Origin: Flavobacteriales bacterium
GTDB taxonomy: Bacteria > Bacteroidota > Bacteroidia > CAIKAF01
Direction: 5' to 3'
Length of the DNA stretch: 64,000 bases
Assembly (NCBI GenBank): GCA_025451235.1
Contig: JANWKT010000008.1
Location: 62,001-126,000 of the forward strand
Part shown: piece by piece, positions 17,045 to 31,921 of the stretch
Numbering within the stretch: position 1 is the first letter of the stretch
How the letters are laid out: the number at the start of each line of letters is the position of its first letter
The notes under the pieces: model-generated
Databases searched by the model: none
What the model was told of the DNA's origin: nothing
The model's input: only the letters and a program-made list of their open reading frames with translations
Translations under genes and position numbers: made by a program

Positions 17045-17778
17045 TGTATGTTGAATTGCTGATGCAATTTTTTTTCCTCCTTTTTTTTGTCTCCCTGATC
17101 CCGATAGCTATCGGGATGTCGAAGGGTTTTCTTTTTTCCCTCCGGGGGCTTCTTTTTTTTAGAGGGCCGAAGGAGAAACTTCCAGTGGAAGTTTTGAATG
17201 AGGAGCCAGTCGGTGCGGTTGGGATCCCTGCTTTCGCAGGGACGCAACGAAATGAACTCCCGGCCTCGTTACACCCGCAATGCCTCCTCGGCCAAATGCC
17301 TTTTGCCCTTGCGCAGTCCACCGCACAGGCATTGCCGAGCGCTGCCGTATCCACTCGGACAACCCACCCCGCACCGCCACCATTTCGTTGCCTACCTCCG
17401 GCAGATTTCTTCTCGGATTTTTCCCAACACACTGGCCACATGATCTGCGATTTTTTGGGACAAAAAGAACAACACGGGTAATTGCAGGTAAGTGAGAACT
17501 TGGCAAACCCACTATCCCGCAAATAATGTAGCCTGCGGGAGGCGAAACCCGAAATGGTGCGAACTTTGGGTTTTGCGGCTTAGGCGGCGTTGGGTTAAGG
17601 TGAAAAGCAAAAGCCCAAAGTTAGCATTTCGGGGGTCTTTTCTTTTGCTTACTTTTCTTTGGACAAGCAAAGAAAAGTAAGACCCAGTGGTAACGAAAAA
17701 AAGAAGAACTGCTGGGGATAACTGAAGGACTGAAAAGCCGAAACTAAGTAAAAACCTTCTTGACCGAAATCTAATCTT
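17045..17778. repeat. Composite intergenic repeat, copy B
   Basis: No gene is supported. It begins with the palindrome CCCGATAGCTATCGGG (17100-17115). A stretch at 17160-17430 matches copy A (5.58-5.88 kb) and copy C (19.37-19.56 kb). A second block at 17484-17690 matches only copy C (19604-19812). That block holds a long inverted repeat, CCCGAAATGG...TTTTGC (17548-17576) against GCAAAAGCCC...TTTCGGG (17607-17633), and a 14-bp perfect hairpin (17648-17661 / 17668-17681). Open frames on both strands are artefacts of the GC-rich repeat. Confidence 0.85.
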
Positions 17779-18348
17779 TTATTGCTTCTGTTCACTCGTG
17801 GCTTTTATATCCTCCCTCCGCGGCGCTCCAAAAATAGGAACCAATATTTTTTCCAGCAATCTCCAGAACCGAAGTTTATCTAATACAAAATTCATATAGG
17901 GAGTAACTACACAATAAGCCGAGTTTTTTTCTCCCCTATGATGCTGTGCATGGTGCTTCGAATTTTGTAGGATGCGCAAAGTTTGAAGGATTCTTACGAT
18001 CCACGGAACTTTATGTTTCGGTAAATGTGCATATTTATGCAATTGGTTCGCATTCGTACCAATAAAACAAAACAACCACATATGCCAGGTGAGTTGTCCA
18101 ATCCACCAGGCAACCACAATTCCCAATGCCGAAACCAATAACAAATCCCAGGAACTGGCCCACCAGGATTTTTTGGTGAACTCCAATGGACTATGGTGAT
18201 GGACCACATTCGGAATAACGATCCATTTACCCACTACGGGAGTTTTCTCCGTTCCAAATGTATCTTCCGCCCAATGTACAATGCCAGAGAGCAAATCGAT
18301 GGCGAGGATAACCAGAATCAATTCGATGATGAACCAAAGTATGGACAT
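17779..18348 (-). CDS. CarF/TMEM189 (Kua)-type fatty-acyl desaturase, candidate plasmanyl-lipid desaturase
   Basis: 189 residues with three or four membrane segments and a set of His clusters at the expected places: 'GIVHWAEDTFG' near residue 22, 'NVVHHHSPLEFTKKSWW' near 47, 'NQLHKYAHLPKH' near 101 and 'SKHHAQHHRGEKNSAYCV' near 129. This pattern is that of the Kua/TMEM189/CarF family. Members studied in myxobacteria and animals introduce the vinyl-ether double bond of plasmalogens. The reaction needs O2 and an electron donor, implying an aerobic lifestyle. No plasmalogen partner genes are nearby. Specific substrate is inferred. Confidence 0.8.
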   Translation of the reverse strand: MSILWFIIELILVILAIDLLSGIVHWAEDTFGTEKTPVVGKWIVIPNVVHHHSPLEFTKKSWWASSWDLLLVSALGIVVAWWIGQLTWHMWLFCFIGTNANQLHKYAHLPKHKVPWIVRILQTLRILQNSKHHAQHHRGEKNSAYCVVTPYMNFVLDKLRFWRLLEKILVPIFGAPRREDIKATSEQKQ

Positions 18349-19162: not shown

Positions 19163-19912
19163 AAGGGGTTAACGGTTGTTAACTAGGGCTATAAATGTTT
19201 TTAAGAAATGGGAGGATAGTCCCTCGTTCATTCAACATTTCTTTGTATGCTATCAGCAGATTTTTTCTCGGATTGCTGGCGCAATTCATTTTTTCTTTTT
19301 TGCCTCCGGCGGTTTCCCTCCGGGGGCTTCTTTTTTTTAGAAAAAAAGAAGGAAAAAAATCGCAACGAAATGAACTCCCGGCCTCGTTACACCCGCAATG
19401 CCTCCTCGGCCAAATGCCTTTACCCTTACACATTCCAACCCACAGGCATTGCCGAGCGCTACCGTATCCACTCGGACAACCCACCACGCACTGCCACCAT
19501 TTCGTTGCCTCCCATCCGGCTGATTTCTTCTCTGATTGCTCCCAACCCACAGACCACAGGGTATAGTATTTTCTGGGTATAAAGATTGTACGTGAAATAG
19601 CAAGTAAGTGATAACTTGGTTAACCCATGATCTTGCAGATAATGTGGCTTGCGGGAGGCGAAACCCGAAATGGCGCGAACTTTGGGTTTTGCGGCTTATG
19701 CGGCGGTTGGGCAAAGGTGAAAGCAAAAGCCCAAAGTTAGCATTTCGGGGCTCCTTTCTTTTGTTTACTTTTCTTTGGAGAAGCAAAGAAAAGTAAAACC
19801 CTCGCGGTAGCGAATCAGAGCAAACACATAACGCCGCAGGCAAATCTGCGGGAAATAAACGAGTAACCCCGATAGCTATCGGGGCTGCGAGGCGTTGGCT
19901 AAAAATCCAATA
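19163..19912. repeat. Composite intergenic repeat, copy C
   Basis: No gene is supported. 19372-19560 matches copies A and B ('atgaactcccggcctcgtta', 'cattgccgagcgct'). 19604-19812 matches the second block of copy B, including the inverted repeat and a 14-bp perfect hairpin (19764-19777 / 19784-19797). It ends at the palindrome CCCCGATAGCTATCGGGG (19867-19884). The first block is shortened relative to B: the 'ccgaaggagaaacttcc' part is missing. Confidence 0.85.
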
Positions 19913-22144: not shown

Positions 22145-23422
22145 TTAAAATTTCGAAAAAAACAGGACTGCATTCACGTCTCCGAAGCCAAAACTGGACT
22201 TTCCGACGATATTGATTTCTTTTTGGATGGTTTGGAGGGGGGCCTTTTCCCGATCGATAATGGCTGCAATTTCAGGGTGAAAGTCCACAGAATTTTTATT
22301 GCCGTGGATAAATCCCCCTTGCATTTGTAGAATGGCCGCTACCAATTCAATACTTCCGGCCGCTGCCAGGCAATGACCGATCAATGTCTTGGGTGCATTT
22401 ACATAAGGGAAATCCTTGCCTTTCAACTGAAGTACTTCGGACCAGTTCCTAATCTCGGCCACATCACCTATGGTAGAAGTAAGATGTCCGCAAATAAGGT
22501 CTATTTGTTCTGCTTTTACACCGGCATTCTCCATGGCCTGACTAATGCATTTACGCACCGCATAGTTGTTAGGGAAGGTCATGGTACCTCCCTGGCGTTG
22601 GCCACCGTTATTGATATGTCCGCCCAATATTTCGGCGTAGATCCTGGCCCCTCTTTTTTGTGCATGTTCCAGTTCTTCCAATACCAAAGCACCGGAGCCG
22701 GCACCGGGAATAAATCCGGAAGCAGTTGCACTCATAGGTCTGGATGCTTCTTCAGGCCGGTCGTTCATTTTACGGTTGGTGACCCACATGGAATCGAACC
22801 CACCCCAAATATAAGGACCGTCACAATCTGTGCTGCCACAAAGCATAATATCTGCTTTGCCATTTTTTATAAACTCAAATCCATCAATCACGCCTTCGGT
22901 ACCTGTGGAGCAGGCCGAACTATTGCTGGTGACTTTATTTCCCAACCCGATCAATCCTGATAAAAAAGCAGAAGGGCCCGAGTTCATGGTCTGCTCAATC
23001 ACCCTGCCACCCAGGCGACGTACATTCATATCGTCTACTTTATAAAAAGCATCCCGCAGAGGTTCTACTCCGGCTATACCTGTACCAAAAATACTTCCTG
23101 CATTCCAGAAAGGCTCTATCTTCTCATCGGTCCCTTTTAATTCGAAGCCGGCATCCAACCAGGCATCTACTCCGGCTATACAACCATATACAATGGCAGA
23201 GCTGGTTAAAAATTTTAAGGTAAGCTCCGTGAAATATTTCTTTTTTAATTCTTCGGTCACTGCAGGGATCCCTGCCAGTGTACATGCGAAGCCCAGGCGT
23301 TTTAATTCAGCAATTTCTTTGATCCCGCTTTTTTGATGGTAAAGGGCATTGGAAAATTCTTCGAGGTTAATTGCATTGGGGGCAACTACTCCCATTCCAG
23401 TTACAACGACCCTTCTTTCCAT
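22145..23422 (-). CDS. Beta-ketoacyl-ACP synthase (KAS I/II-type), last gene of the lipid/polyketide cluster
   Basis: 425 residues, starting 'MERRVVVTGMGVVAPN' as KAS I/II enzymes do. The nucleophile Cys171 lies in 'SNSSACSTGTEGVIDG', and the two catalytic His are in 'ICGHLTSTIGD' and 'LIGHCLAAAGSIELVAA'. The Gly-for-Ala and Leu substitutions around the first His are unlike housekeeping FabF. It condenses malonyl-ACP with an acyl chain, probably making the long acyl starter used by the type III synthase in this cluster. It follows the FabZ-like gene by 49 bp. Confidence 0.9.
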   Translation of the reverse strand: MERRVVVTGMGVVAPNAINLEEFSNALYHQKSGIKEIAELKRLGFACTLAGIPAVTEELKKKYFTELTLKFLTSSAIVYGCIAGVDAWLDAGFELKGTDEKIEPFWNAGSIFGTGIAGVEPLRDAFYKVDDMNVRRLGGRVIEQTMNSGPSAFLSGLIGLGNKVTSNSSACSTGTEGVIDGFEFIKNGKADIMLCGSTDCDGPYIWGGFDSMWVTNRKMNDRPEEASRPMSATASGFIPGAGSGALVLEELEHAQKRGARIYAEILGGHINNGGQRQGGTMTFPNNYAVRKCISQAMENAGVKAEQIDLICGHLTSTIGDVAEIRNWSEVLQLKGKDFPYVNAPKTLIGHCLAAAGSIELVAAILQMQGGFIHGNKNSVDFHPEIAAIIDREKAPLQTIQKEINIVGKSSFGFGDVNAVLFFSKF

Positions 23423-23471
23423 TTATTCTAAATGTTTCGTGTAAAGATAAGTGTTTTGATGGACAAACACT

Positions 23472-23924
23472 TTATATCGTTGCGAACATGCCTGCCATGA
23501 CCCCTTTGCTGATAAGCTCACCAGATTCTGTTTCCATGGTGACTTCACATTTCAGGCTTTTGAGACGGAAATATAATTTATGTGCTTTTACAATTACTTT
23601 TTCTTTGGGAAGAACCGTACGGTAATAATGTACCTGGTTGGTGGTAAAAAACACACGTAAAGTTTTCATGATCTCGGGGTTGGCCCGGTATAAATGGATC
23701 CCAAAAGCTACTAAACCGATTTGCGCCATACATTCGGTGAGGATCACTCCGGGGGTTACCGGATTTCCAGGGAAATGACCGCGGTAAAAGAATTCATTTT
23801 CTTTAAACGTATAGCAGCCTTCAATGTGGTCATCATCGATCTCTAGTATTTCATCAATAAATCTGAAGGGGGCCCTGTAGGGCATGCAGTCCAAGATATT
23901 TTGCTCTACGCTGGTTGCTATCAT
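23472..23924 (-). CDS. FabZ-like 3-hydroxyacyl-ACP dehydratase (hotdog fold)
   Basis: 150 residues with the hotdog-dehydratase active-site helix 'YRGHFPGNPVTPGVILTECM', containing the catalytic His and Glu. Start 'MPYRAPFRFIDEI' and end fit FabZ lengths (~150). It would supply the dehydration step for chain extension together with the ketosynthase and the SDR. I infer a dedicated pathway copy, because it is separated from ordinary fab genes and sits inside this cluster. Confidence 0.88.
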   Translation of the reverse strand: MIATSVEQNILDCMPYRAPFRFIDEILEIDDDHIEGCYTFKENEFFYRGHFPGNPVTPGVILTECMAQIGLVAFGIHLYRANPEIMKTLRVFFTTNQVHYYRTVLPKEKVIVKAHKLYFRLKSLKCEVTMETESGELISKGVMAGMFATI

Positions 23925-24013
23925 CTATACAAATATAATAATTAATGCAGGCAGTTTTATATAACAAATATTGTACCGATTTATTGTAAATTAAGAATGT
24001 TTTTGAAAGGTTT

Positions 24014-24215
24014 TTTGGGCGGCTTACCTGCCTGTCGACGCGCTGGCCATGCACCTTGGCAGGCAGGTCCGGCTGTACGCTATATCTTTTTTGTTTGCCA
24101 CCAGATCACATTTTTTTTCGTTGGATTGCCCTACGACATATGTTGTGGGATATCCCAACGATTACAACCTTTCATGTCAAACAAAAAAGGATGCCGCTTC
24201 CATCCGGGCCGCTAC
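24014..24215. repeat. Nested-hairpin intergenic element inside the polyketide cluster
   Basis: Between the SDR and the FabZ-like gene. ACCTGCCTG / CAGGCAGGT arms lie near 24026-24068. CTTTTTTGTTTG (24086-24097) pairs perfectly with CAAACAAAAAAG (24178-24189). TCGTTGG (24118-24124) pairs with CCAACGA (24155-24161) inside it. The ends 'gggcggctt' and 'atgccgcttccatccgggccgc' suggest an outer stem too. From memory this layout recurs between genes in other Bacteroidota; I cannot verify that here. It starts right at the SDR stop codon. Confidence 0.65.
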
Positions 24216-24216
24216 C

Positions 24217-25005
24217 TTAAATCAATGATTCGCCTCCATCTGCTTTTACAAGTGATCCGTTGATCCATTTGGCTTCGTCCTGGCATAAAAGATATACCAC
24301 ATTGGCAATATCCTCTGGAAGGGTGAGTCTTTTAAAAGGATTTCTCTTCATAGAATATTCCACCATTTTTTCTGATCCGGGGATCATTTCCAGGGCCGGA
24401 GTTTTTACCACCCCACTTTGGATCACGTTGGTCTTTATTCCTAACGGAGCCAGTTCAACGGCCATGTACCGGCACAATACTTCCAGACTTGCTTTGGCCG
24501 CAGAAACGGCCGTATAATTGGGAATATATTTTTGATTTCCTTCGCTGGTAAATGAAATATTACGTGCATCCTCTGCCCAAAGTTGTTGATCGAGCAATTC
24601 TTTGGTCCATTCCCACCAACTGGTAGCCATGGCATGGATGGTAATGTCAAAATCAGTTTTATCCAGGGTAGGTTCTGTATCGGAAACCAATTTTTTTAAA
24701 TTTCCTTTCGCGATACTGTGTACCATGCAATAAATTTTCTCCGCCCCTATTTTTTCTTTGATGTTGAGCACTATTTTTTTTCGCAGCTCAGCATCCAATG
24801 CAGTTTCGTTGAAGGAAATAAGTTGATTGCCTTGTGACTTGATGGATTCAAATTTTTGAAGGAGTTCGTTTTCGTTCGACTTTCTATCACGATGAACGAT
24901 GATGAGGTTCATCCCTTCGGCCGCCAGTTTTTTTGCCGTGGCAAATCCAAGTCCACTTGATCCGCCCAGGATGAGGGCCCATTTATTTTTGAGGGTGTTG
25001 CTCAT
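24217..25005 (-). CDS. Short-chain dehydrogenase/reductase, enoyl-ACP-reductase type
   Basis: 262 residues. The NAD(P) loop is 'LILGGSSGLGFATAKKLA' (residues 12-29). The active site has Tyr followed by Lys seven residues later ('NYTAVSAAKASLEVLCRYMA'), the Yx6K spacing of FabI/FabL enoyl reductases rather than the Yx3K of ordinary SDRs. The C-terminal 'NGSLVKADGGESLI' is standard. It would complete reductive cycles of acyl chain making with the FabZ-like and KAS proteins. A ketoreductase role is less likely. Confidence 0.85.
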   Translation of the reverse strand: MSNTLKNKWALILGGSSGLGFATAKKLAAEGMNLIIVHRDRKSNENELLQKFESIKSQGNQLISFNETALDAELRKKIVLNIKEKIGAEKIYCMVHSIAKGNLKKLVSDTEPTLDKTDFDITIHAMATSWWEWTKELLDQQLWAEDARNISFTSEGNQKYIPNYTAVSAAKASLEVLCRYMAVELAPLGIKTNVIQSGVVKTPALEMIPGSEKMVEYSMKRNPFKRLTLPEDIANVVYLLCQDEAKWINGSLVKADGGESLI

Positions 25006-25353
25006 AACCCTTGCAAGATAAATATTTTTTATTTAACCATATAGTTCTTGCCTATTCGCCTAACACTTCGTCGGCTCATTGCACTTGGTGGATGGTTTCC
25101 TGCAGAATCTTTGATCCACCAGCGCTGCGCTCGGTGGATGGTTTCCCGCAGATCTCGCAGATTTTCGCAGAACTTTTTCTTAGCCTCGTACATTCCCTTC
25201 GGCAGATATCAACTCGCAGATCAGAGGCGCCGAGGCGCCTCATCTGCGAGAACCTAACGAGCAGCGTCATCTGCGAGTAATTCATATTCTGCGGGAACTA
25301 CTTGTAAATATCTTTGGGAAACATTTTTTATTAAGCGCTGGCAAGAAAAATAA
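25006..25353. repeat. Gene-free repeat stretch in the polyketide cluster
   Basis: No gene is supported. 'ggtggatggtttcc' occurs twice (about 25087 and 25132), each followed by 'gcaga'. The word 'ctgcgag'/'ctcgcag' recurs in both orientations. A strong hairpin lies at 25213-25250: CTCGCAGAT/ATCTGCGAG with an inner AGGCGCC/GGCGCCT. It separates the SDR from the type III polyketide synthase, which are otherwise in one transcription direction. Confidence 0.75.
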
Positions 25354-26406
25354 TTACTGCCACTGAAGAAGAACTGTTTGAGCCGTAAAACCCGGACCAA
25401 AACTAAGCATGAGTCCGTATTCGCCTTTGGCAATATTTTTTTGCATGAATTTATCCAATACATAGAGAACCGTTGCACTGCTCATATTTCCATATTCCCT
25501 TAATACTTCTTTGGTCGGGTTGATATTTTTACCGTATTGTGCAAACAGATCGTCAACCACCTGAACAATTTTTTTTCCACCCGGATGGAAGATGAATTGA
25601 TTGATGTCTTCTATTTTCAATCCGTTCTTTTCGATAAACGGGAAAATGATCTTTTGAAAATGTTGTTCTATCTGATTAGGTACTTCAGGATCCAATACAA
25701 TTTGTAAACCTGAATTTTTCAGATCAAATCCCATGAGCCGGGGTTGATCGTAAAAATGGTACATCTGTGTATCCAGGATCACGGGTCTTACATCCGTACT
25801 GGGTTTAATGATGGCACAAGCACATCCATCACCAAAAATAGCAGCGCTGATGGCATTGGTCAAACTTTTATCTTCGATCAAAAAAGTAGAAGTAGGGGAT
25901 TCGAAGGCGACAATCGCAATGGTCTTCGAAGGATTTGCTTTTGCAAATTCATGGGCATAGATGAGGGCCGAAGTTCCACCGGCGCATCCCATTTCGGTGA
26001 TGGGTAAACGAACAATGTCCTGCCTCAATCTTAACCTGTTCACTAAAAATGCATCTACGGAGGGGATCATAATACCCGTACAGCTGGTGGTAATGATAAT
26101 ATCCACTTCCTCTGGTTTTGTACCTGATTTTTCCAATGCATGTCTCAATGCATTTTCGCAAAGGTCAATAGATGCTTTAATATAAATATTATTCCGCTCT
26201 TCAAAACTTTTTTCGCTGAAGATTTCATGGATGGGCATGATCCCATATCTTCTTTCCACTTGTGCATTCTTGAATAAGCGAATAATTTTTTCCTGGTCCC
26301 TTTCGGTGAGATCACCTACCCATTGCCGGGCGTATTCTATAATTGTATCAATACTTTCTGTAAATTCCGGGAGTTCAATATGGGTAGTATGTATTTTCGA
26401 CGACAT
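25354..26406 (-). CDS. Type III polyketide synthase (chalcone-synthase-like)
   Basis: 350 residues. The catalytic triad is visible: Cys141 in 'ITEMGCAGGTSALIYAH', His in 'QFIFHPGGKKIV' and Asn in 'EYGNMSSATVLYVLDKF'. The C-terminal 'GEYGLMLSFGPGFTAQT' is the family's GFGPG-like loop. Type III synthases extend an acyl starter with malonyl-CoA and cyclise it. The neighbouring methyltransferase and flavoprotein match the alkylresorcinol-making type (as in the srs operon of Streptomyces), so a fatty-acyl starter is likely. Product is inferred; an alkylpyrone is the alternative. Confidence 0.92.
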   Translation of the reverse strand: MSSKIHTTHIELPEFTESIDTIIEYARQWVGDLTERDQEKIIRLFKNAQVERRYGIMPIHEIFSEKSFEERNNIYIKASIDLCENALRHALEKSGTKPEEVDIIITTSCTGIMIPSVDAFLVNRLRLRQDIVRLPITEMGCAGGTSALIYAHEFAKANPSKTIAIVAFESPTSTFLIEDKSLTNAISAAIFGDGCACAIIKPSTDVRPVILDTQMYHFYDQPRLMGFDLKNSGLQIVLDPEVPNQIEQHFQKIIFPFIEKNGLKIEDINQFIFHPGGKKIVQVVDDLFAQYGKNINPTKEVLREYGNMSSATVLYVLDKFMQKNIAKGEYGLMLSFGPGFTAQTVLLQWQ

Positions 26407-26469
26407 CTTACAATTTCAAGGGGCTAAATAACTGCTTTATTTCAATACTCTTATCTTTTTGACTGTTTT

Positions 26470-27180
26470 TTATTGTTTTTTGATTAATAGGAGTTGCCAC
26501 CGGAAAGCCCATCTCCAGTGGAGCTTATATTCATATCCTGAAATTCCTTCGGCCATGCTGATCATCTCTTTTTTATCGAAACCCTTTGTAATAGAGAGCC
26601 TACCATCGTGAAAGGTTACAGTGGAGGTCCTTTTTACCTTACATAAGAGGGTAAAAAGGATATATGCCAGCCTGCTTCGCTGAAGATCATTCACCACGAT
26701 CAACCCAGGACCCTTCTCCAGCAGGTTGTTCAAGATCTTCCTGATATCTGTCATTTCGAAATGGTGAAGGAACAAATTCAGCATATACACATCTGCAAAA
26801 GGGATCTTTTCTGTTTCGAGCAATACATCGGCCTTTACAAACTGGATCTGTTGATGTTGAAAATGTTTTTCCCTGGCAAAATCAAGGATATGTTCATTGG
26901 CATCCACCCCCACCAGGTTCACCGGTATATGTACGTGTTTTGACACCTTTTGGATCTTTTTTAAAATATCTCCTGATCCACATCCAATATCCACCACAGT
27001 TACCTTGCGTTGCAGATGTTCCTGTATGTATTTTAAAATGGGGTATACGGAGGTATTGATGCCCCCCAGGTATTTATTTACCCATTCAATTTCCAGGAGG
27101 GTGAGATCAAGGGCCTGACCCACCATATTAAAATCATCTATGTATTCGGGTACTACCACCCTGTTTTTAAATCTGCTCAT
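26470..27180 (-). CDS. Class I SAM-dependent methyltransferase of the polyketide cluster
   Basis: 236 residues with motif I 'VTVVDIGCGSGDILKKI' (~residues 58-74), motif II 'LVGVDANEHIL' and the 'ADVYMLNLFLHHFEM' post-motif. Small methyltransferases of this kind adjoin type III synthases in many bacteria and methylate the phenolic product or its acid. Its start codon overlaps the stop of the FAD oxidoreductase by 4 bp, so both are translated from one transcript. The substrate is inferred. Confidence 0.88.
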   Translation of the reverse strand: MSRFKNRVVVPEYIDDFNMVGQALDLTLLEIEWVNKYLGGINTSVYPILKYIQEHLQRKVTVVDIGCGSGDILKKIQKVSKHVHIPVNLVGVDANEHILDFAREKHFQHQQIQFVKADVLLETEKIPFADVYMLNLFLHHFEMTDIRKILNNLLEKGPGLIVVNDLQRSRLAYILFTLLCKVKRTSTVTFHDGRLSITKGFDKKEMISMAEGISGYEYKLHWRWAFRWQLLLIKKQ

Positions 27181-28367
27181 TGTTTAAAAAAATCTTTGCC
27201 AGGCAAGCCTTTTGTAAAAAAATCTTTGCCAGGCAAGCCTTTTGTAAAAAAATCTTTGCCGTGCGTTTTTTTGATGATGGCCGGTAAAACAAATGGAGCT
27301 ACCTGTAAACTTTTTAATGCAACAGATGAAATGCTCTTTTTTCCGAACAATTTTTGTACGTTATATCCCACATCTAGTCTTGACTGAAAGTTGTTTTTCC
27401 ATTCTTCTGCATACTTATGCCTGAGCTCTTCTGCACTTATCTTTTTATTGAAATATGCTTCCAATAATGTACTGGCAATAAAAGCTGCATGAATGGCCAT
27501 GGCCATTCCATTTCCGCAGAGGGGAGTGATCAAACCGGCTGCATCTCCCAACATGAGTATTCCGTCTTCTACCGGCTTTTTAGGTTTGAAAGAGAAATCA
27601 CTGATGGTCTTGGGTTCATCGAATAATTTTTCCCCATTGGTGAAAATATCTTTTAAAAATGGATTGGTCCAAAGTAAATGGCTTTCCAATTCCTCTATGG
27701 ACCCATATTTTTTGAGGGATGATTTTGAGGTGAGGTAACATACATTGGTGATCTCATTCTCCACCATCGATACTCCGCAATAACCTGTTTCGAAATTATG
27801 CAAGGCTACCAGGTTGGAAGGGATGGGGTATTTAAAATGATATTTTACACCCAGGTAGTCATTGTCCTTCTGAAAAAATTCCCGGTCCATGATCCGGTCG
27901 ATATTCGATTTTTTTCCATGGGCCGACAACAATATTTGTACCTGATAGGTTTGATTCGTGCTGGTCTTTATTTCGTAATGCTCCTCCGTTTTCGAAAAGC
28001 CGGTTACATTTTCCTGGAGATGGACCGTGATATTATTTTTTATGGCCAGTTGATAGAGTGCATGGTCAAACACATATCTGCTTAAACCAAAAGCTCCCTG
28101 GTCTAACTTGGCATGCGTAGTATTTCCGTTCCAATGTGATATTTCAAATTCATCAATATTCACGGCTCCATCCTTGAAAGGATCGTAACCCAGATAGGAT
28201 AAATAATGCAGGGTTTCGTTCGATACATATTCACCGCATACTTTATGGCGTGGGTATTCGCCTTTTTCCCAAACGATGCAAGAAATTCCGAGTTTATTTA
28301 AATGTAAAGCGGCGCATAGACCTGCGAGCCCCCCTCCTATAATTCCAACCTGAAACTGATCCGGCAC
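27177..28367 (-). CDS. FAD-dependent oxidoreductase (geranylgeranyl-reductase/aromatic-hydroxylase type) with repeat tail
   Basis: 396 residues from a GTG start (28365-28367); no in-frame ATG precedes the FAD loop 'VGIIGGGLAGLCAALHLNKL'. 'MLGDAAGLITPLCGNGMAMA' is the second FAD motif. 'PRHKVCGEYVS' fits the FixC/geranylgeranyl-reductase-like group, which includes aromatic hydroxylases. It would hydroxylate or oxidise the phenolic lipid. The last residues are a tandem repeat (KDFFTKGLPG), see separate entry. It overlaps the methyltransferase by 4 bp. Confidence 0.87.
   Translation of the reverse strand: MPDQFQVGIIGGGLAGLCAALHLNKLGISCIVWEKGEYPRHKVCGEYVSNETLHYLSYLGYDPFKDGAVNIDEFEISHWNGNTTHAKLDQGAFGLSRYVFDHALYQLAIKNNITVHLQENVTGFSKTEEHYEIKTSTNQTYQVQILLSAHGKKSNIDRIMDREFFQKDNDYLGVKYHFKYPIPSNLVALHNFETGYCGVSMVENEITNVCYLTSKSSLKKYGSIEELESHLLWTNPFLKDIFTNGEKLFDEPKTISDFSFKPKKPVEDGILMLGDAAGLITPLCGNGMAMAIHAAFIASTLLEAYFNKKISAEELRHKYAEEWKNNFQSRLDVGYNVQKLFGKKSISSVALKSLQVAPFVLPAIIKKTHGKDFFTKGLPGKDFFTKGLPGKDFFKQ
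27183..27262 (-). repeat. In-frame 30-bp tandem repeat at the oxidoreductase C-terminus
   Basis: The 30-bp unit 'aaaaaatctttgccaggcaa' plus 'gccttttgta' occurs twice exactly, then a third partial unit. In protein this gives repeated KDFFTKGLPG and ends KDFFKQ. Since 30 is a multiple of three, copy-number change would lengthen the tail without breaking the frame. Confidence 0.9.
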
Positions 28368-28378
28368 CTGATTGATTT

Positions 28379-28945
28379 TTAGTTTTGGACCATATTTACG
28401 GTCCCATCATCAATTTTGATCTTGAGGTTATCGATCAATTCTTTGATGGCAGGGATATACATGGGTAATTCCATTTTGAGGATCTCCACATTCACATTAA
28501 TGGAGGGTTGCGCAGGATTCCGGATCATCCTGGCCCCATAGCTGCAAACGATCTGGGTACCATATTCCATGCCCCGGAATTTTACCGTTCCGGTGATGCT
28601 GAATGTATAGGTTTCCTTTAGGTTATCCCGTGGCCAGATTTTGTCTTCAGGAATAAATCCTTCGAAGGTGAGGTGATTGGTATCATCAATATTGGTATTG
28701 TATTCGATCCCATCTCCTGGTAACGGACCGTTGCTTTGGTCAGCCAGGTCCCTCATATTCACCGCCAATTTGAAAGAGGAGTTATTGGGGTAGTATAAGA
28801 GAAAACAACGCTTTGAAACAAAATAATGGCTTTGTACCCCTACCATTTTTATTTCAGCCGGGCATGAAACCAGGAAATTTGGCTGTGAATAGGCGGTAAA
28901 ACCTATTACATAGGTAAATATGACCAATAGTAATAGCCGTTTCAT
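28379..28945 (-). CDS. Secreted hypothetical protein upstream of polyketide cluster
   Basis: 188 residues from the ATG at 28945, with a signal peptide ('MKRLLLLVIFTYVIGFTAYS'). The mature part is beta-rich ('TYTFSITGTVKFRGMEYGTQ') and vaguely YceI- or lipocalin-like, but I cannot confirm either. It ends 12 bp before the GTG of the FAD oxidoreductase, so it is probably the first gene of that transcript. If lipocalin/YceI-like, lipid binding would fit the cluster; this is inference only. Confidence 0.65.
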   Translation of the reverse strand: MKRLLLLVIFTYVIGFTAYSQPNFLVSCPAEIKMVGVQSHYFVSKRCFLLYYPNNSSFKLAVNMRDLADQSNGPLPGDGIEYNTNIDDTNHLTFEGFIPEDKIWPRDNLKETYTFSITGTVKFRGMEYGTQIVCSYGARMIRNPAQPSINVNVEILKMELPMYIPAIKELIDNLKIKIDDGTVNMVQN

Positions 28946-30397: not shown

Positions 30398-30982
30398 ATG
30401 AATTTCCTGGCACATGCATATTTATCTTTTAATAACAGTCAGCTGCTAACGGGCAATATGATTGCGGATGCCATTAAGGGGAATCAACTGAATGAATATC
30501 CACCCGAAATAAAAAAAGGGATCCTCCTGCATAGAAGTATTGATGCGTATACTGATCAACATGAATTGGTCAAACAAAGTCGAAAAATATTTTATCCCGC
30601 TATTCGTCATTATGCATTGGTGATCTCCGATGTGATCCATGACCATTTTTTAGGAACCAACTGGACTAGTTTTAGTGAAGATAGTTTGGAGGAGTTTTCA
30701 AAAAGATCTTTTGCTGATCTGGATGCGCATCAATCCTATTTCCCGGAAAAATTCAAGAGGATCTATCCTTATATGAAAGAACATAATTGGTTTGTGATGT
30801 ATGCCACCAGGCCAGGCATTGAGGGGACGATTGAAAGGTTGAGCTATAGAAGCAAAAATTTTATCTGGGCCAAAGAGACCATTGATATTTTCAACCGCGA
30901 ATATGATGAGCTGGAAAAATTATTCATGGATTTCTTTCCTCAGTTGGTGGAACATAGTAAAGATTTTTTAAAAAAAGAGTAG
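30398..30982 (+). CDS. acpH: Acyl carrier protein phosphodiesterase (AcpH/DUF479)
   Basis: 194 residues. 'MNFLAHAYLSFNNSQLLTGN' followed by 'MIADAIKG' and 'GILLHRSIDAYTDQHELVKQ' are the AcpH signature with the metal-ligand His and Asp residues of an HD-like fold. 'ISDVIHDHFLGTNW' gives the further metal His/Asp. The enzyme removes 4'-phosphopantetheine from ACP. Its location within 10 kb of the ACP-dependent cluster may be coincidental. Confidence 0.9.
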   Translation: MNFLAHAYLSFNNSQLLTGNMIADAIKGNQLNEYPPEIKKGILLHRSIDAYTDQHELVKQSRKIFYPAIRHYALVISDVIHDHFLGTNWTSFSEDSLEEFSKRSFADLDAHQSYFPEKFKRIYPYMKEHNWFVMYATRPGIEGTIERLSYRSKNFIWAKETIDIFNREYDELEKLFMDFFPQLVEHSKDFLKKE

Positions 30983-31022: not shown

Positions 31023-31466
31023 TCAGGAAGAAATTTCCATGCAATTTTTCAAATCTACTAACCTCTGCTTCACATTTCCATTCAGATTGGACCGAATGAA
31101 TGGACTCAACAAACTATAGGGAAAACGAAGTGTAAATGAATAGGTGAATGTAACCAGGGTTTTGTTGGGTGCTTCGGTTTCAAATTGCCAGGAACCTGCA
31201 AAGGATTTGAACATAAAAGGGCCCTTGGTCATTTTTACAGCGGTTACTTTGGGCCGATTAAAACTTATATATTCTGTTTCCATCCCCATTCCATTTTTTG
31301 CAACACACCATGCCTTTACCCCTTTGGCGGATTCCTTAGCCCCCTCTATTAATCTTGCCTCTTTTAAAAAAGTATCCCATATCAGTCTTTTATCATAATC
31401 CTGGGTAAAATCAAAGATCTTCTCAGGTGGAGAAGAAATGGAAATGGATTGAAGGATTTTGGGCAT
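31023..31466 (-). CDS. SRPBCC (START-like) domain protein
   Basis: 147 residues from the ATG of 'MPKILQSISISSPPEKIFDF' (31466). An alternative in-frame ATG at 31517 overlaps the stop of the previous gene (ATGA), so translational coupling with a 17-residue extension cannot be excluded; the domain itself starts at the internal ATG. The SRPBCC pattern includes the 'PPEKIFDFTQDYDKRLIWDT' start and the 'VTFTYSFTLRFPYSLLSPFI' end helix. It likely binds a hydrophobic ligand. It is the last gene of the overlapping membrane operon. Confidence 0.78.
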   Translation of the reverse strand: MPKILQSISISSPPEKIFDFTQDYDKRLIWDTFLKEARLIEGAKESAKGVKAWCVAKNGMGMETEYISFNRPKVTAVKMTKGPFMFKSFAGSWQFETEAPNKTLVTFTYSFTLRFPYSLLSPFIRSNLNGNVKQRLVDLKNCMEISS

Positions 31467-31513
31467 AGAATTATTCTGGTTCAAGTATAGGGAAAAAAAA
31501 GAAAAAAGATTAC

Positions 31514-31921
31514 TCATTCCTGATTAATTCCAATTAAAGTACCAATTTCTATGAACATCATTACCGAGCCAAGTAAGAGGAAAATATATAGCAATTGAAA
31601 GTACCACTTTTCTTTTATTAAAGAAGCGATGGATGGAACTATGCATAGTAAGAAAATCGGTATAAAGTAGAAAGCATGATCAATATAATTCTCATGCCTG
31701 AAATCATAGGACATTGGGTTTTTGATGTAAAATACAAAATGTATAATCCAAACAATAACAATTACGACTTCAATACCCAGTATCACCTTTAAAATAACGG
31801 AAACAATAGAGTCCAATTTTCTGGAGATTTGGGAGATTGCGTATAAGATTGCTAGAAAAACCGTTGAGATAAAGACCCCAATAGAAAAAAATATAAAAAA
31901 AACCATTGCTACACCACCCAT
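31514..31921 (-). CDS. Four-TM membrane protein, unknown
   Basis: 135 residues from the ATG at 31921 (a TTG 12 bp upstream is less likely). About four hydrophobic helices cover most of the length. No motif is recognised. The stop overlaps the alternative SRPBCC start, so it belongs to the same operon. Confidence 0.6.
   Translation of the reverse strand: MGGVAMVFFIFFSIGVFISTVFLAILYAISQISRKLDSIVSVILKVILGIEVVIVIVWIIHFVFYIKNPMSYDFRHENYIDHAFYFIPIFLLCIVPSIASLIKEKWYFQLLYIFLLLGSVMMFIEIGTLIGINQE

Follow-up and report, generated by a model that had tools for sequence, protein, structure and literature searches.

A cluster of six enzyme genes, intact as reading frames and located on the minus strand at positions 22145-28367 of a 64,000-nucleotide stretch of contig JANWKT010000008.1 from a Flavobacteriales bacterium (GCA_025451235.1; this whole stretch is hereafter the window), encodes a type III polyketide synthase (T3PKS), a class I S-adenosylmethionine (SAM) methyltransferase (MT), a flavin adenine dinucleotide (FAD)-dependent oxidoreductase, a beta-ketoacyl-acyl carrier protein (ACP) synthase (KAS), a FabZ-like dehydratase, and a FabL-like short-chain dehydrogenase/reductase (SDR). 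With a probability of roughly 60%, we read this cluster as a phenolic-lipid pathway whose own dissociated (type II) fatty-acid module feeds the type III PKS. The wider proposition of a Bacteroidota-wide phenolic-lipid pathway, in which a type II module with its own ACP and phosphopantetheinyl transferase (PPTase) loads the type III PKS directly and can also serve other end enzymes, is put forward more tentatively, at slightly below even odds.

Each component falls into a known family, and the grouping of a T3PKS with an MT and an oxidoreductase has precedent. The open-access literature searched yielded neither a product of this cluster type nor any account of a dissociated fatty-acid module that carries its own ACP and PPTase and is conserved across Bacteroidota, an earlier account elsewhere being possible. 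Should this reading be correct, a single conserved pathway would, in about 9% of the sampled Bacteroidota genomes (17/198), produce an undescribed lipid, and it would offer a dissociated, easily reconstituted counterpart, with a defined ACP, of the Azotobacter hand-off from fatty acid synthase (FAS) to type III PKS. In a survey of Flavobacteriaceae, only one predicted biosynthetic class was commoner than that of type III PKS clusters, which accounted for 9% (PMC7440613).

Conservation of the six-gene cluster

Another genome of the same genus (G013) and sister-genus genomes share the gene order of the window, as do most of 79 Bacteroidota loci; the latter were collected as the top-scoring hits of the query synthase and are not a random sample. 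These loci span Flavobacteriaceae, Sphingobacteriaceae, Chitinophagaceae, Saprospiraceae, and their relatives; all six genes are present in 48 of the 79, and a further 19 lack the SDR only. Neighbouring genes in relatives are separated by median gaps of -1 to 6 bp, and in loci devoid of the SDR the median distance between T3PKS and FabZ is 21 bp. Since the same order recurs in relatives, the gene set is more than a chance assembly, and on this comparative evidence the six genes are confirmed as a real, intact, and conserved unit. A preliminary description, drawn from the sequence by itself, had likened the FAD-MT-T3PKS set to an alkylresorcinol operon and had placed the KAS, dehydratase, and Yx6K reductase in the same cluster as the synthase. 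The set is indeed present, with its order recurring in most relatives, and the association with the fatty-acid trio is borne out by an order conserved across Bacteroidota.

In a phylogenetic tree, the 23 included synthases from clusters of this type group in a single clade (support 100/100), with other type III PKSs of Bacteroidota and of plasmids falling outside. Fourteen divergent type III PKS loci of Bacteroidota all lack fatty-acid genes nearby; two carry homologues of both the MT and the FAD enzyme, one carries the MT only, and 11 carry neither. Between the window and G013, the KAS, FabZ, SDR, T3PKS, and FAD sequences are 78-90% identical, with dN/dS ratios of 0.04-0.08 that are approximate owing to saturated dS, and these five genes are under purifying selection relative to G013. 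The MT is 59% identical.

The predicted catalytic residues are likewise retained. The Cys-His-Asn triad of the T3PKS is identical in 80/80 aligned rows, the FabZ His and Glu are kept in 74/74, the SDR Tyr and Lys (Y-x6-K) in 56/56, and the KAS Cys-His-His residues in at least 72 of 73. The window T3PKS is a type III PKS by PF00195/PF02797 matches above cut-off, by its triad, and by its fold, its structure model having a predicted local distance difference test (pLDDT) score of 90 and template modelling (TM) scores of 0.89-0.93 to solved type III PKSs. For the SDR, FabL is the best NCBIfam model, with a score under the FabL cut-off. Homologues of the MT are also linked to a T3PKS in Roseomonas and Sphingobium, and MT and FAD homologues of 25-38% identity sit beside other T3PKSs. 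Together, the conserved order and tight spacing, the single synthase clade, and the complete catalytic residues argue for the proposed pathway.

Several other assignments were rejected. The T3PKS scored 169 bits as DpgA (dihydroxyphenylacetyl-CoA synthase) against an NCBIfam equivalog cut-off of 425, and DarB, the flexirubin resorcinol former, reached 25.5 bits against a cut-off of 550. By gene list and alignment, the KAS has a complete Cys-His-His set and no partner ketosynthase in the cluster, and an aryl polyene or type II PKS system was discarded on the lone KAS without a chain-length-factor partner. Halogenases are among the PDB matches of the FAD enzyme, but it scores best against the geranylgeranyl-reductase family model; inspection by eye revealed no GWxWxIP motif.

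The FAD and MT genes overlap by 4 bp, and most relatives have an orthologue of the FAD enzyme at the corresponding position. The 3′ end of the FAD gene consists of three 30-bp tandem repeats (27180-27269), encoding GKDFFTKGLP-like 10-residue units and abutting the MT start, and the FAD protein of G013 is 10 residues shorter than that of the window. A further FAD homologue, on Hymenobacter swuensis plasmid pHsw1 (L205, 1063-6077), lies away from any type III PKS and adjoins an isonitrile synthase and a TauD-like dioxygenase.

A dedicated acyl carrier protein

In most relatives, the two genes after KAS encode an ACP, roughly 84 residues long, and an Sfp-type PPTase. Both are missing from the window: its cluster, gaps included, contains no ACP, and a profile search of the window's own genome returned only ACPs on contigs C24 and C17. 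The former lies in an adjacent ACP-PPTase pair at G000:C24:313934-314727. This pair is near a contig end and the synthase lies inside contig C8 (502 kb), away from its ends, and therefore the two are not neighbours; G013 likewise has its ACP-PPTase pair on another contig. The C24 ACP scores above the Pfam cut-off and the PPTase just under it (24.6 vs 25 bits). In the profile search, the C24 ACP was recovered at E 1e-28 vs E 2e-9 for the C17 ACP, the ordinary ACP, which is a separate gene near a FabF-like housekeeping KAS sharing 32% identity with that of the cluster. Judged by sequence, the dedicated ACP is distinct from the housekeeping ACP.

Among 198 sampled Bacteroidota genomes, all 17 that carry the synthase clade encode the dedicated ACP, against one of the 181 others (four of 181 at a looser cut-off), a co-occurrence with a nominal Fisher p of 1e-23 that is uncorrected for shared ancestry. 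Within the family, it is present in 7/8 genomes with the synthase and in 0/8 without. The preliminary description had called for a search for an associated ACP gene and had suggested that the acyl starter could be made in place; such an ACP was found, unlinked yet co-occurring with the synthase, and production of the starter in place is supported. Both this co-occurrence and the adjacency of ACP and PPTase in the window's own genome would favour a dedicated acyl supply.

It is very improbable that the copy in the window genome is decaying and yields little or no product. Such decay could account for the unlinked ACP-PPTase pair, the repeats in the gaps described below, and the low identities to G013 of the MT and of the PPTase (only 41%); it is opposed by six intact frames, by the low dN/dS of the other five cluster genes, and by an ACP sharing 77% identity with its G013 counterpart.

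Proposed pathway and competing interpretations

In the pathway that we consider most probable, the PPTase on C24 would activate the dedicated ACP encoded beside it, and the KAS would condense acyl chains with malonyl-ACP. Ketoreduction and malonyl transfer would be performed by housekeeping enzymes, after which FabZ would dehydrate and the FabL-like reductase saturate the intermediate, so that the dedicated ACP comes to carry a lengthening acyl chain. This chain would then pass from the ACP to the type III PKS, which would extend it with malonyl-CoA and close a ring, most likely that of a 5-alkylresorcinol, which the MT may methylate and the FAD enzyme may hydroxylate to give a methylated alkyl-hydroquinone or quinone, or a hierridin-like lipid. 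Gene content, catalytic residues, gene order, the dedicated ACP with its PPTase, and ACP-synthase co-occurrence are direct observations; we infer each reaction, the hand-off from ACP to PKS, the type of ring, and the role of the product.

Characterized systems offer partial parallels. As in cyanobacterial hidABC and the Planctomycetota operon, the window T3PKS is linked to an MT and an oxidoreductase (PMC8086630, PMC10896814), a linkage found in most relatives as well; the products there are alkylresorcinols built on a long-chain starter. The window differs from both in its FAD-MT-T3PKS order and in the addition of KAS, FabZ, and an enoyl reductase, to which relatives add the dedicated ACP and PPTase. 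For the hierridin synthase HidC, acyl-ACP has been proposed as starter (PMC8086630), and in Planctomycetota, where MT-oxidoreductase-T3PKS operons give alkylresorcinols, co-expression of one MT-oxidoreductase pair added one methyl group (PMC10896814). In Azotobacter, an acyl chain is handed from FAS to type III PKS, and the ars system (ArsA/D + ArsB/C) resembles the window cluster in dedicating fatty-acid synthesis to type III PKSs (PMC6274091). By analogy, this hand-off and the alkylresorcinol-forming operons would support the proposed pathway. Unlike the type I multidomain synthases of ars, the window enzymes are discrete, and an MT and an FAD enzyme are added; an ars-type operon was accordingly set aside, as no ArsA/ArsD-type synthase is present, and the cluster resembles a type II counterpart of ArsA/D + ArsB/C. 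Streptomyces srsABC encodes a type III PKS, a methyltransferase, and a flavin hydroxylase without a fatty-acid module of its own, and is likened to the window cluster by these three enzyme classes only. Dialkylresorcinol (DAR)/flexirubin (DarA/DarB) and aryl-polyene clusters, common in Bacteroidota, also form aromatic or polyene lipids via discrete fatty-acid-type enzymes; in the window, however, the ring former is a type III PKS rather than DarB, and there is one KAS and no chain-length factor. The koreenceine cluster of Pseudomonas (PMC6498172), a type II PKS, was considered and found to be different.

With regard to the ring, a resorcinol is favoured over a pyrone. The nearest folds to the T3PKS model are CylI (PDB 8ysp, about 27% identical) and then Pks11, which form a resorcinol and an alkylpyrone, respectively; therefore a resorcinol is favoured and a pyrone is possible. 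CylI, the resorcinol-forming type III PKS of cylindrocyclophane biosynthesis, takes acyl and beta-ketoacyl substrates and has been solved with acyl- and beta-ketoacyl-N-acetylcysteamine (SNAC) and with its resorcinol product, so that the modelled similarity would fit the proposed chemistry. The CylI starter is supplied by a modular type I PKS. The foremost alternative, itself unlikely, is that the same pathway produces an alkyl-alpha-pyrone methylated by the MT, with the FAD enzyme acting on chain or ring. It draws on Pks11 being the best PDB sequence match as well as the second fold match, and on the resorcinol/pyrone switch in ArsB taking one residue (PMC6274091), but the linked MT and oxidoreductase fit characterized resorcinol operons and the top fold match forms a resorcinol.

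A serious alternative, unlikely too and ranking next, limits the KAS to a single extension: one unit would be added to a housekeeping acyl chain, the resulting beta-ketoacyl-ACP would pass to the type III PKS, and FabZ and the reductase would edit or rescue intermediates. The beta-ketoacyl complex of CylI and the absence of the reductase from 19 relatives agree with this possibility, as does a plasmid cluster (pKN1) of Sphingobium yanoikuyae, in which just an ACP and a KAS adjoin a T3PKS, an MT, and an FAD-type protein. The latter differs from the window in its distant synthase, which lies outside the Bacteroidota clade, and in having no annotated dehydratase or reductase; as a separate, independent association of ACP and KAS with these enzymes, it would also lend support to the proposed pathway. 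Against a single extension, the conservation of the FabZ catalytic residues in every row and of the reductase in 56 loci suggests full reductive cycles.

A number of observations weigh against a dedicated fatty-acid module feeding a resorcinol-forming synthase. The cluster contains neither a ketoreductase nor a malonyl transferase, the ACP-PPTase pair is unlinked in this lineage, the best PDB sequence match is an alkylpyrone synthase, and no chemistry is known for this synthase clade. Additionally, the T3PKS-SDR gap measures 348 bp in the window vs about 22 bp in G013 (aligned start codon, L032 coordinates) and contains sequence that recurs at 24 genomic locations, and the SDR-FabZ gap (292 bp) contains sequence that recurs at 19. 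Both gaps carry interspersed repeats, and because these widen the two gaps, co-transcription of the six genes is not assured. FabZ and KAS may be separately transcribed in this lineage: a terminator-like hairpin lies 3′ of the SDR and a perfect TATATTTG box stands 5-6 nt ahead of FabZ in both the window genome and G013, each a pattern match at or near chance frequency, and scans for sigma-70 promoters and for terminators gave no more than chance-level matches.

Furthermore, cassettes without this synthase occur elsewhere, so that the module is not tied to type III PKS alone. One, in G113 (C44, L198, 8776-15110), comprises SDR-FabZ-KAS-ACP-PPTase; another, in G060 (C51, L199, 8606-12856), comprises FabZ-KAS-ACP next to a glycosyltransferase-like gene, and that genome yields no match to the synthase at E 1e-50. 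These examples suggest that the fatty-acid cassette can be combined with other end enzymes. Together with the two repeat-filled gaps and their possible internal transcription signals, they also speak for the KAS-FabZ-SDR module being an unrelated neighbour of the FAD-MT-T3PKS trio, an improbable explanation given an order kept across several Bacteroidota classes and an ACP that co-occurs with the synthase even when unlinked. On inspection of translations, a DarB-like ketosynthase and transporter genes lie near the G113 cassette.

Gene inventory and neighbourhood

Table 1. Features of the cluster and its surroundings in the window.
Feature	Position	Strand	Basis
KAS, FabF-like beta-ketoacyl-ACP synthase, Cys171-His313-His350	22145..23422	minus	PF00109/PF02801
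FabZ-like 3-hydroxyacyl-ACP dehydratase, His50/Glu64	23472..23924	minus	PF07977
Intergenic gap, FabZ-SDR: interspersed repeats, terminator-like hairpin, TATATTTG box	23925..24216		pattern matches only
FabL-like SDR, putative enoyl-ACP reductase, Tyr164-x6-Lys171	24217..25005	minus	best NCBIfam FabL, below equivalog cut-off
Intergenic gap, SDR-T3PKS, with interspersed repeat	25006..25353		repeat copies in genome
T3PKS, Cys141-His274-Asn307	25354..26406	minus	PF00195/PF02797
Class I SAM MT	26470..27180	minus	Methyltransf_25; best NCBIfam PRK06202, below cut-off
FAD-dependent oxidoreductase (geranylgeranyl-reductase / FAD_binding_3 superfamily), probable ring hydroxylase	27177..28367	minus	Pfam/NCBIfam
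Predicted secreted protein, counted from ATG	28379..28945	minus	0 Pfam/NCBIfam matches
AcpH	30398..30982	plus	PF04336, 213 bits

Two neighbouring genes had been connected with the cluster in the preliminary description. AcpH is present as described, but it was rejected as a partner on its distribution: all eight family genomes that lack the synthase have it, as opposed to 4/8 of those that carry the synthase. The secreted protein does precede the cluster; a role in it is disfavoured, as its conservation across the loci examined is confined to its own genus (G013, 58% identical), and on this comparison it is a lineage-specific neighbour. Its structure model was unusable (pLDDT 42). In 17 other loci (L041, L094, and 15 more), mainly of Flavobacteriaceae, inspection identified a YceI-like secreted protein that precedes the FAD gene, lies some 2.4 kb upstream of the T3PKS gene, and might bind the hydrophobic product. 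Assignment of the window secreted protein as a YceI-like lipid carrier was rejected by profile comparison (2% probability).

Additional features lie further out. A PF10520 lipid desaturase of the CarF/TMEM189 type (17779-18348, minus strand, 135 bits), sharing the fold of plasmanylethanolamine desaturase, is encoded about 4 kb from the cluster. Two intergenic repeat blocks (17100-17690 and 19290-19900), about 2.1 kb apart, share many segments of 86-100% identity and have a small secreted-protein gene between them. On the other side, about 2.5 kb from the cluster, a lipid-transport-type protein of the Polyketide_cyc2/START fold is encoded at 31023-31517 on the minus strand.

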